64,000 nucleotides of DNA from an uncultured Syntrophobacterales bacterium. GTDB taxonomy: Bacteria > Desulfobacterota > Syntrophia > Syntrophales > UBA5619. The stretch spans positions 1-64,000 of the forward strand of contig CAIYSL010000138.1 in assembly GCA_903928915.1 (NCBI GenBank). The letters are read 5' to 3'. Positions 44,422-47,342 of this stretch are shown piece by piece. The notes under the pieces are model-generated. The model saw nothing but the letters and a program-made list of their open reading frames with translations. It did not search any database and was not told the origin of the DNA. Made by a program: the position numbers and the translations under genes. How positions within the stretch are numbered: the first letter of the stretch is position 1; the number at the start of each line of letters is the position of its first letter.

Positions 44422-44465
44422 GTTCTTTCTCCTTTCGTGGTTTGCGTTGGTGCCGTGAACATGCC

Positions 44466-44500
44466 GTTATACGTAAAGTTAATCATTCCGTTTGGGAAAT
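44466..44500 (-). promoter_or_regulatory. Candidate promoter/operator of the Cus-type operon
   Basis: A -10-like TATAAC (44471-44466) has no good -35 box. Instead an imperfect palindrome ATTCCG-TTTG-GGAAAT (44485-44500) covers the -35 position, as expected for an activator site. The rest of the gap to 44788 holds GC-rich inverted repeats and a repeated GATAGTATYGGG (44655 and 44717). Confidence 0.4.
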
Positions 44501-44788
44501 CAATGGGCTAGCCCCATCGGTCCTATCTCTGTTCGGGCCGCCTCCCGCGGATGATCTATCCCCGCGGTGTGCTGCTCACCGGCCCGAAAGATTGCGCCGT
44601 CCATCCCCGGGATGAGCAAAGGCCGTGCCAGCCGTACGCAACCACCCTTGATCAGATAGTATTGGGCATTTCCCGCGCGCGGGCAAATATTGCCGTGGTC
44701 TTTTTCCCGGCAACCGGATAGTATCGGGTGCGATTTTTCTTCCCACGGGAAGAGCGGCCATAAAAGATATGGGAATATTATTCGCAGC

Positions 44789-46000
44789 ATGAGCAGAGGC
44801 AGGCAGGGCAGCGAGGCGGGCGTACGGCAGAGGCGCAGGAGAGTGCACGGGAGTCCCGCTGCGGCAGGAGAGGAATGCCGCGACCTGATCTGCCCGAGCT
44901 GTCCGAACGGCTGCCGGTTGACGATCGCCGTCCGGGGAGAGCAGGGCGTTGAGCTGCGGGGCAATGGGTGCGCCCTGGGGCTGGAATTCGTCCGCACCCT
45001 CCCCGCCGCGGGGGGGCGTGCCGTTATCGCCTGCGAACCGTCCACGCTGCACACCCGGGAGTGGCTCAAGGAGGTCGCCGCCTCCTGGGGGATCCGCGTG
45101 AAGGCCCTCCGGCCCCGGCTGATCCCCGCGGGGAGCCCCGAGCGCACGCTCTTCCGCGTCGTCGTCGAAGACGCCCAGGGCGGCCGCTTCATCCTGGAGC
45201 AGATCCCTACCGCGGCCCGCTGCGCGAAAATGCGCATCATCAGGGTGCTGGAGTTTTTGTCCGCAAAGGGTCTTGCCGGGATCACGCCGTACCGGGCCGA
45301 CGGCGACGGGGAGTACCTCCATGCCCGCGACGGGGGGCTGTGGCAGCTCGTCCCCTTCGTGGACGGCGTTCCCCTGGACCGCGAGCGGTATATCCACGAG
45401 GGGTGGCGCGCCGGGGTCCTGGCGCGGTTCCTGATCGAACTGAAGGAGGCATCCCGGGGGCTCCCCCATTCTTCGCCCGCAGAGCCCTTTTCGCTTACGA
45501 CGTACATCCGGACGCTCTGCTCCCGGATCGAACGCTGCGAACCGGCGCTGATGCCGCGGGTCGATCCAATCATCGCATTCCTGGAGCAGGGATTCATGGC
45601 CATCCATGACGCCCTGCCGACGGGATTTTGCCACGGCGATTACCACCCGCTGAACATCATCTGGGGGGAGCGCGATATCCGTTCGGTGATCGACTGGGAG
45701 TTTGCGGGGGCCAAACCGGAGGTCTACGACCTGGCCAACATGGTCGGCTGTCTCGGGGTAGAGCATCCCTCCAGCCTGGTGGGGGATCTGGTCGTGAACC
45801 TGATCGCGCAGCTGAGGGGCGCGGGGCTCTACGCCGATATCAGCTGGCGCCACTTCAGCGAGTTCGTGATCGCCCTGCGGTTTGCCTGGCTGTCCGAATG
45901 GCTGCGGAAAGAGGACCGCCAGATGATCGCCCTGGAACTCGATTACTTCGACCTGCTCATCCGCAATCACGACCGGCTCGTCCGCGCCTGGTCGCTCTGA
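44789..46000 (+). CDS. DUF1667-like cysteine domain fused to an APH-type phosphotransferase
   Basis: This protein has about 403 residues. An N-terminal section at about 48-75 has LICPSCPNGCRLTI and then ELRGNGCALGLEF, the four-cysteine pattern of DUF1667. It is followed by a kinase-like C-terminal domain with HGDYHPLNIIW (Brenner motif, near 280) and SVIDWEFAGAKPEVYDLAN, the catalytic and metal-binding segments of APH/choline-kinase proteins. The N-lobe Lys expected for ATP binding is not obvious. The start at 44789 has a weak ribosome site; an upstream ATG at 44690 is possible. The gene stands alone with no operon partner. The substrate is unknown. Confidence 0.72.
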   Translation: MSRGRQGSEAGVRQRRRRVHGSPAAAGEECRDLICPSCPNGCRLTIAVRGEQGVELRGNGCALGLEFVRTLPAAGGRAVIACEPSTLHTREWLKEVAASWGIRVKALRPRLIPAGSPERTLFRVVVEDAQGGRFILEQIPTAARCAKMRIIRVLEFLSAKGLAGITPYRADGDGEYLHARDGGLWQLVPFVDGVPLDRERYIHEGWRAGVLARFLIELKEASRGLPHSSPAEPFSLTTYIRTLCSRIERCEPALMPRVDPIIAFLEQGFMAIHDALPTGFCHGDYHPLNIIWGERDIRSVIDWEFAGAKPEVYDLANMVGCLGVEHPSSLVGDLVVNLIAQLRGAGLYADISWRHFSEFVIALRFAWLSEWLRKEDRQMIALELDYFDLLIRNHDRLVRAWSL

Positions 46001-46019
46001 GGCGCCGAGGGAGGGAAAC

Positions 46020-46050
46020 AAAAAAGGCCCGGGGATCGCTCCCCGGGCCT
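46020..46050 (-). terminator. Intrinsic terminator of the minus-strand tctC gene
   Basis: An 11-bp perfect stem AGGCCCGGGGA / TCCCCGGGCCT (46025-46050) with a TCGC loop is followed on the minus strand by TTTTTT. The hairpin can also end the convergent phosphotransferase transcript. Confidence 0.85.
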
Positions 46051-46143
46051 GCTGCGCTTCGCCCTGCGCCCGCCGGCCGCAGCGGCCCGGGCGCCCGCAA
46101 CCGGGTCTCCGGACGGCGAAAAGCGCCGGACCCGGTCACCTGG

Positions 46144-47112
46144 CTATTTCTTGTAGATCTTTCCCATCTCCTTGTGCAGTTCGTACTCCGCACGCCAGAG
46201 CTTGCCGAACTCGTCGGGCCCCAGGAAGTTGGGGACATCGCCGAAGCTCTTGATCATGGCGACTACGGCCTTGTCCTCGGTCATCTTCTTGAAGGCGGCT
46301 GCCAGCTTGTCGATGACCGGCCGCGGGGTCGCCTTGGGGGCCAGAACGCCGCGCCACATCAGGTATACCACGTCGACCCCCTGCTCCTTGGCGGTGGGGA
46401 AGTCCGGGTAGGTCGGGTTGCGTTTGTCGTCCAGCACGGCCAGCATCTTCATCTTGCCCGCCTTGATCTGCGGCAGGGCCTGGGCAGCGAAATTCGCCGT
46501 CACGTCGATGTGGCCGCCCAGGAGCGCGACCATGCAGGGCCCGCCGCCGTCGTAGGGGATGACCTTGGAGGTGATCCCGGTCTTCTTCATCAGCTCCTTC
46601 CAGGGTACGTCCGCCGCACCCCAGAGGCCGCTGTGGCCGAACTTCAGCTGTCCGGGGTTGGCCTTTGCCCAGGCGATCATCTCCTGGAGGGTGTTGAACG
46701 GCGCGTCGGCCCGGGCGACGAAGTTGTTGGCGCTGTAGTTGATCCTGCAGACCGGCTGCAGGTCGTCCGGTCCCTTCGACCGCCCCTCGATCGCGGGCAG
46801 CGTGGTGTTCCAGCCGGGGCCGCCGATCGCCAGGGTATAGCCGTCGGGCGCCGACTTGGCCACGAACTCGGAGCCGATCGCCCCGCCCCCGCCCGATTTG
46901 ATCTGGACAACCATGGGCTGTCCCAGGTAATCGTTCGCCACGCTCGTCACCGCGCGCAGCGTCAGGTCGTGGGACCCTCCCGCCCCCATCGGATTGATCA
47001 GGGTGATCGGTTTGGTAGGAAAATCTTGCGCCAGGGCGACCGGATACCCTGCCAGTGAGAGGGCCAGGATCAGGAAGCCCGCCCAGATCTTCACCGCTGA
47101 TGCCTTGTTCAT
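46144..47112 (-). CDS. TctC-family (Bug) substrate-binding protein
   Basis: This 322-residue protein has a signal peptide ending near GYPVALA, then QDFPTKPITLINPMGAGGSHDLTLR, VVQIKSGGGGAIGSEF, APDGYTLAIGG, VIPYDGGGPCMVALLGGHIDV and YPDFPTAKEQGVDV, all Bug-family marks. It starts at 47112 behind AAAGGAGGAG. It has its own promoter (47214-47242) and terminator and no tctA/tctB neighbour, so it is an orphan receptor that must share a membrane transporter encoded elsewhere or act in sensing. The ligand is probably a carboxylic acid. Confidence 0.9.
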   Translation of the reverse strand: MNKASAVKIWAGFLILALSLAGYPVALAQDFPTKPITLINPMGAGGSHDLTLRAVTSVANDYLGQPMVVQIKSGGGGAIGSEFVAKSAPDGYTLAIGGPGWNTTLPAIEGRSKGPDDLQPVCRINYSANNFVARADAPFNTLQEMIAWAKANPGQLKFGHSGLWGAADVPWKELMKKTGITSKVIPYDGGGPCMVALLGGHIDVTANFAAQALPQIKAGKMKMLAVLDDKRNPTYPDFPTAKEQGVDVVYLMWRGVLAPKATPRPVIDKLAAAFKKMTEDKAVVAMIKSFGDVPNFLGPDEFGKLWRAEYELHKEMGKIYKK

Positions 47113-47213
47113 CGATCTCCTCCTTTCAGATGACACGCCTGTTATCGTTCCCCTCCGGGAACCGGCATTCCTCCGCATATTCCGGGGGATGCCTGTTTGG
47201 TGGGGGTTGCGTC

Positions 47214-47242
47214 AGAATAGGAAATGCGGTTTGGCCTGTCAA
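47214..47242 (-). promoter_or_regulatory. Sigma-70 promoter of the orphan tctC
   Basis: On the minus strand TTGACA (47242-47237) and TATTCT (47219-47214) are 17 bases apart, about 100 bases ahead of the start codon. Confidence 0.8.
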
Positions 47243-47275
47243 GGATATTTTCTTTGCCTGCGGGTGATTTTCATC

Positions 47276-47304
47276 TTGACAGGCGAAGGGAATTCGTATA
47301 GGAA
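47276..47304 (+). promoter_or_regulatory. Sigma-70 promoter of rpsT
   Basis: TTGACA (47276-47281) is followed by TATAGG at 15 bases or TAGGAA at 17 bases (47299-47304), 40 bases ahead of rpsT. Confidence 0.65.
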
Positions 47305-47342
47305 TCACAACTTACCGAACACGACCCGAAGGAGGACGTTTT

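Follow-up and report, generated by a model that had tools for sequence, protein, structure and literature searches.

An APH-fold kinase fused to a cysteine head resembling that of DUF1667 proteins in an uncultured Syntrophobacterales bacterium

Introduction

DUF1667 has been described as a small protein that adjoins FAD oxidoreductases (PMC7282089). An operon at locus L130 illustrates this arrangement: it encodes a stand-alone DUF1667 protein together with Pyr_redox, DAO+Fer2_BFD and FGGY kinase proteins, and is of the type glycerol kinase (glpK)/GlpA-like/FAD oxidoreductase/DUF1667. It bears out the expectation of a first-pass annotation that DUF1667 usually lies beside flavoproteins of the glycerol-3-phosphate-dehydrogenase type.

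To our knowledge, an Fe-S redox or iron switch has been described for no characterised APH or choline-type kinase. By title and abstract, a literature search on Fe-S and aminoglycoside-phosphotransferase architectures turned up nothing relevant, and a search starting from acyl-CoA-type APH kinases (ACAD10/11, PMC11342911) yielded no direct link. Here, we describe a gene in a 64,000-nucleotide stretch (the window) from an uncultured Syntrophobacterales bacterium, in which a cysteine-rich head precedes an APH-fold kinase.

Results

The fusion gene is a single uninterrupted frame on the forward strand encoding 403 amino acids, from an ATG at 44789 to a stop codon at 45998-46000; its features are listed in Table 1. 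Codon-position GC was 0.68/0.74/0.74 over 44789-44870, without third-position bias, and coding-like (0.70/0.57/0.90) over 44870-45127. Because the former segment lacks a coding-like pattern, the start is uncertain, and the GTG at 44843, 16 residues ahead of Cys1, appears about as likely a start as the ATG at 44789; both lie upstream of the four cysteines. In the relative L031 (53% identity), the same single frame begins with an ATG six residues ahead of Cys1, and in L099, L101, L031 and L103 the sole candidate starts upstream of the cysteines fall within about ten residues of Cys1.

Table 1. Features of the fusion gene and its downstream flank, in window coordinates
Feature	Position	Strand	Evidence or remark
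Fusion gene: cysteine head + linker + APH-fold kinase	44789..46000	+	alternative start GTG 44843
Residues 31-68, cysteine head with homology to that at the N terminus of DUF1667 proteins	44879..44992	+	32.7 bits; hhalign 97.3%
First three cysteines, C35-x2-C38-P-N-G-C42	44891..44914	+	invariant in 11/11 fusions
Fourth cysteine, N59-x-C61-x2-G64	44963..44980	+	N, C, G invariant in 11/11 fusions
Linker and start of kinase N-lobe, residues 69-114	44993..45130	+	two alignments
APH-fold kinase domain, GSPER motif to C terminus, residues 115-403	45131..45997	+	PF01636, AlphaFold2, Foldseek
E137, predicted strand beta3	45197..45199	+	E in 52/53 family members, D in one
Catalytic loop H282-G-D284-Y-H-P-L-N289	45632..45655	+	H282, D284, N289 in 53/53 family members
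Metal-binding motif D302-W-E304	45692..45700	+	53/53 family members
Palindromic terminator-like hairpin	46025..46050	- (TctC side)	11-pair stem, T-rich tail; consensus match only

Homologues of the fusion were sought in 155 genomes of the window's class, 395 of its phylum, 285 of the L031 phylum and 82 of a third phylum, and public genome contigs were scanned once with peptide patterns. The fusion is real: apart from the window genome it occurs in ten others, three of the same order (L002-L004) and seven of the phylum that includes L031, a MAG with the label Omnitrophica (Omnitrophota), so that the architecture spans two bacterial phyla. The first-pass annotation had called for a search for further fusions of this kind and for a check for a frameshift between two genes, and had named two ways in which the finding might fail, namely homologue starts downstream of the cysteines and absence of the fusion from all relatives. 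None of the three was found: the same frame recurs in the ten other genomes, which rules out a frameshift artefact, homologue starts precede the cysteines, and relatives do carry the fusion. An assembly or binning artefact is unlikely, since LeuS next to the fusion gene matches its counterparts in congeners at 82-87% identity. The kinase itself was found in 39 of the 155 class genomes; no plasmid relatives were found.

Opposite the kinase, an antisense frame of 481 codons (44576-46021, minus strand) has similar counterparts in GC-rich relatives and is consistent with a GC-driven shadow frame. The terminator-like hairpin lies 25 bp past the stop codon of the fusion gene.

As the first-pass annotation had proposed, a full APH-type kinase lies behind the cysteines: PF01636 matched residues 124-327 (E=2.2e-21; 77.2 bits, cut-off 23.2). 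AlphaFold2 modelled the kinase part with pLDDT mostly 80-98, and Foldseek placed it near the APH protein 4pdy, N-acetylhexosamine 1-kinase (NahK, 4wh2) and homoserine kinase 2ppq, at 12-18% identity. A sequence search of solved structures returned the APH-like protein 9fsg as its sole match (E=0.005-0.0065). No named NCBIfam kinase model matched above its cut-off, and scores were far below: 14.5 bits versus 205 for the aminoglycoside-resistance APH_3p equivalog, and 33.9 versus 271 and 26.2 versus 255.9 bits for the homoserine kinase (ThrB type II) equivalogs. E137 may be the equivalent of the lysine position in many APH kinases, and the kinase would presumably phosphorylate a small hydroxyl compound. 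Alignments showed that kinase-only relatives start inside the region of residues 69-114.

The head cysteines C35, C38, C42 and C61 lie in LICPSCPNGC...GNGC, residues 31-64 of the window protein being RDLICPSCPNGC...GNGC. A profile built from 31 stand-alone DUF1667 proteins scored 32.7-48.9 bits against the 11 fused heads (11/11), with 32.7 bits for the window head, versus 18.6 bits for the best of 11,000 shuffles in which the cysteines were kept fixed. An independent profile-profile comparison (hhalign) aligned the head with the DUF1667 head over 40 columns at 97.3% probability, and a reverse search with a fused-head profile recovered stand-alone DUF1667 proteins in many genomes.

The Pfam model PF07892 corresponds to residues 34-115 of a 120-residue stand-alone protein whose fourth cysteine is residue 33. 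At its cut-off of 27 bits, it matched neither the window protein nor the four headed relatives scanned whole, and it had no match in the window genome. A full DUF1667 domain in the fusion was therefore rejected, as the Pfam part that follows the fourth cysteine is absent. The earlier assignment to DUF1667 thus holds for the homologous cysteine head and fails for the PF07892 domain; the fusions and the DUF1667 proteins have only the cysteine head of about 40 residues in common, without the DUF1667 domain.

The Pfam DUF1667 model omits the conserved cysteine head of the stand-alone proteins, as seen on L130:5885-6244 and L134:6200-6556.

Nine head residues (C, C, P, N, G, C, N, C, G) were invariant across the 11 fusions, and the cysteines were kept in 11/11 at 45-53% overall identity. 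Among the three closest heads, dN was 0.08-0.19 and dS 0.49-1.5 where estimable; other pairs were saturated.

Molybdop_Fe4S4 (PF04879) gave sub-threshold matches to the window head and to five of the six other heads scanned; the head never reached the Pfam cut-off, the best score being 20.7 bits versus 22.7. For one stand-alone DUF1667 protein, weak alignments were obtained with periplasmic nitrate reductase and formate dehydrogenase, in the Fe-S domains of both. A [4Fe-4S] site is the most likely prediction for the head, and because all heads fall below the Molybdop_Fe4S4 cut-off, this assignment draws on cysteine spacing and weak similarity. In the AlphaFold2 model the fold of the head was not resolved (pLDDT about 35-50); the underlying alignment, composed of the window protein and its related-locus proteins, was shallow for the head and included only two headed sequences.

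Phylogenetic analysis of the kinase placed all headed proteins inside one 26-row clade (support 86/90), which also includes headless kinases and GIY-YIG-domain kinases. The tree requires three or more changes of N-terminal label on well-supported branches, the simplest reading being one origin of the head followed by several losses. The earliest branches of the same-order group carry headed proteins; these are followed by a set made up mostly of GIY-YIG fusions and finally by bare kinases. Because loss of the head, or its exchange for a GIY-YIG nuclease domain, has been frequent and has left the kinase motifs intact, we favour the view that it is an accessory module, dispensable over evolution.

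Six same-order genomes (L005, L006, L008, L010, L011 and L017) carry an in-frame fusion of GIY-YIG (PF01541) to the kinase. G038 (L002/L042) encodes all three parts, GIY-YIG, cysteine head and kinase, in a single frame, and in G044 (L043:6020-6361) a separate GIY-YIG gene lies upstream of a headed kinase and overlaps it; the L043 arrangement suggests how the GIY-YIG swap and the G038 triple fusion arose. A headless sub-clade comprising L105 and L106 (also L133 and L146) carries a different N-terminal motif, MDHPTSKCSGSCKIC. Kinases of this type lie near ferritin/rubrerythrin-like genes in L146 and L133, and in L146 a desulfoferrodoxin and a flavodiiron-type protein, both confirmed by Pfam, are also nearby.

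The window protein clustered with L031 and L103 of the L031-phylum sample (support 100/94). At 44422-47342 of the window, YtkA and rpsT flank the kinase gene and one for a TctC receptor; in the congener G126 (L152), the YtkA-rpsT gap measures about 570 bp and contains neither. The kinase was absent from every searched congener, and both genes look recently inserted at this site. Because the window copy sits among Omnitrophota copies and is missing at the same site in G126, which belongs to the same genus, it is probably a recent acquisition, most likely from an Omnitrophota-type donor.

Neighbourhoods of the fusion were not conserved, and it had no constant neighbour gene; 4HBT thioesterases, ThiC, FeoB with MsrA/B, and an oxygen-stress cluster were recurrent, unlinked neighbours. 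The flavoprotein partner (E<=1e-15) had no match in 8 of the 11 fusion genomes, the window genome included, and no GlpA-like or pyridine-nucleotide oxidoreductase gene is adjacent to the fusion gene in the window. An obligatory link to the glycerol operon is disfavoured, with the partner missing from these eight genomes.

In G718 (L130:4627-10334), the fusion gene and the glycerol-type operon lie tail to tail, with 70 bp between the fusion gene and the operon's DUF1667 end. FeoB and MsrA/B lie beside the fusion gene in G584, and a desulfoferrodoxin and a flavodiiron-type protein lie near a headless kinase in G697; the neighbours in G584 and G697 are suggestive only.

Discussion

Our best explanation, to which we give a probability of roughly 0.45, is an APH-fold small-molecule kinase with an accessory, DUF1667-derived metal-binding head, likely a [4Fe-4S] switch or stabiliser. 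The N-terminal head would bind a [4Fe-4S] cluster, which might act as a redox- or iron-responsive switch of kinase activity or, alternatively, as a cluster-dependent stabiliser of the kinase. The computed part of this explanation comprises the reading frame, the head homology, the invariant cysteines, the low dN, the kinase motifs and the loss of the head; to these it adds metal binding, cluster type, a function in regulation and the nature of the substrate, which we infer. A more specific version, in which a redox- or iron-switched Fe-S cluster on an APH-fold metabolite kinase was spread between Omnitrophota-type and Syntrophales-type bacteria by gene transfer, is one that we consider unlikely as a whole.

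Four-cysteine knuckles often serve as structural zinc sites. On the main rival reading, itself rather unlikely, the head has no sensing function and is a zinc (or iron) knuckle whose sole role is structural, stabilising the N-lobe or a dimer. A compact four-cysteine module under purifying selection agrees with such a role, but the spacing C-x2-C-x3-C-xn-C is closer to the [4Fe-4S] layout of molybdopterin oxidoreductases than to a typical CxxC...CxxC zinc ribbon, Molybdop_Fe4S4 matches below threshold turn up repeatedly, and headless kinases persist. We also considered the head as a docking or electron-transfer module that replaces stand-alone DUF1667 in contacts with its flavoprotein complex, that is, the GlpA-like DAO/BFD protein and the pyridine-nucleotide oxidoreductase. 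The glpK/GlpA-like/FAD-oxidoreductase operon does house a stand-alone DUF1667 and lies close to the fusion gene in G718, and within the L031-phylum sample stand-alone DUF1667 occurs in 3 of 7 fusion genomes versus 41 of 278 others (one-sided Fisher p=0.077). Docking is nevertheless improbable, because the flavoprotein is missing from most fusion genomes despite the G718 locus; the window genome, one of those without it, also lacks a PF07892 match.

The idea that the head is a vestige or a chance extension of the N terminus, or that the true start follows the cysteines, could appeal to the non-coding appearance of the first ~27 codons from ATG 44789 and to the repeated loss of the head. It is contradicted by cysteines that stay invariant in all 11 fusions at such overall divergence, by dN well below dS, and by the candidate starts in L099, L101, L031 and L103, all of which lie shortly before Cys1, and we give it hardly any credence.

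If the metal-binding reading is true, it would provide a metal-cluster input for a large kinase superfamily concerned with antibiotic resistance and small-metabolite phosphorylation. Since relatives with and without the head occur naturally, a comparison of the two offers a direct test of what the head does. The findings show that the cysteine head of DUF1667 proteins can travel without the DUF1667 domain, as a module of its own, and this helps to delimit both of these uncharacterised parts.

Compared with known systems, the fusions share with stand-alone DUF1667 proteins a head of about 40 residues, C-x2-C-P-x-G-C...G-N-x-C-x2-G, that aligns without large gaps; after the fourth cysteine, however, the stand-alone proteins continue into PF07892, whereas the fusions have a kinase there instead. 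The head resembles PF04879 in its C-x2-C-x3-C...C-x2-G spacing, with weak matches over its first ~27 residues, but the fusions have no molybdopterin domain and never pass the Pfam cut-off. GIY-YIG fusions belong to the same kinase clade and differ in their N-terminal module, six of them being without the cysteine head. The kinase has the APH/choline-kinase fold (PF01636) and its catalytic motifs HGDxHxxN and DWE, yet it is only 12-18% identical to solved kinases of this fold, and its family is set apart from known APH kinases by a near-invariant GSPER motif and E137 and by a distinct C-terminal RFAWLSEWLRK.
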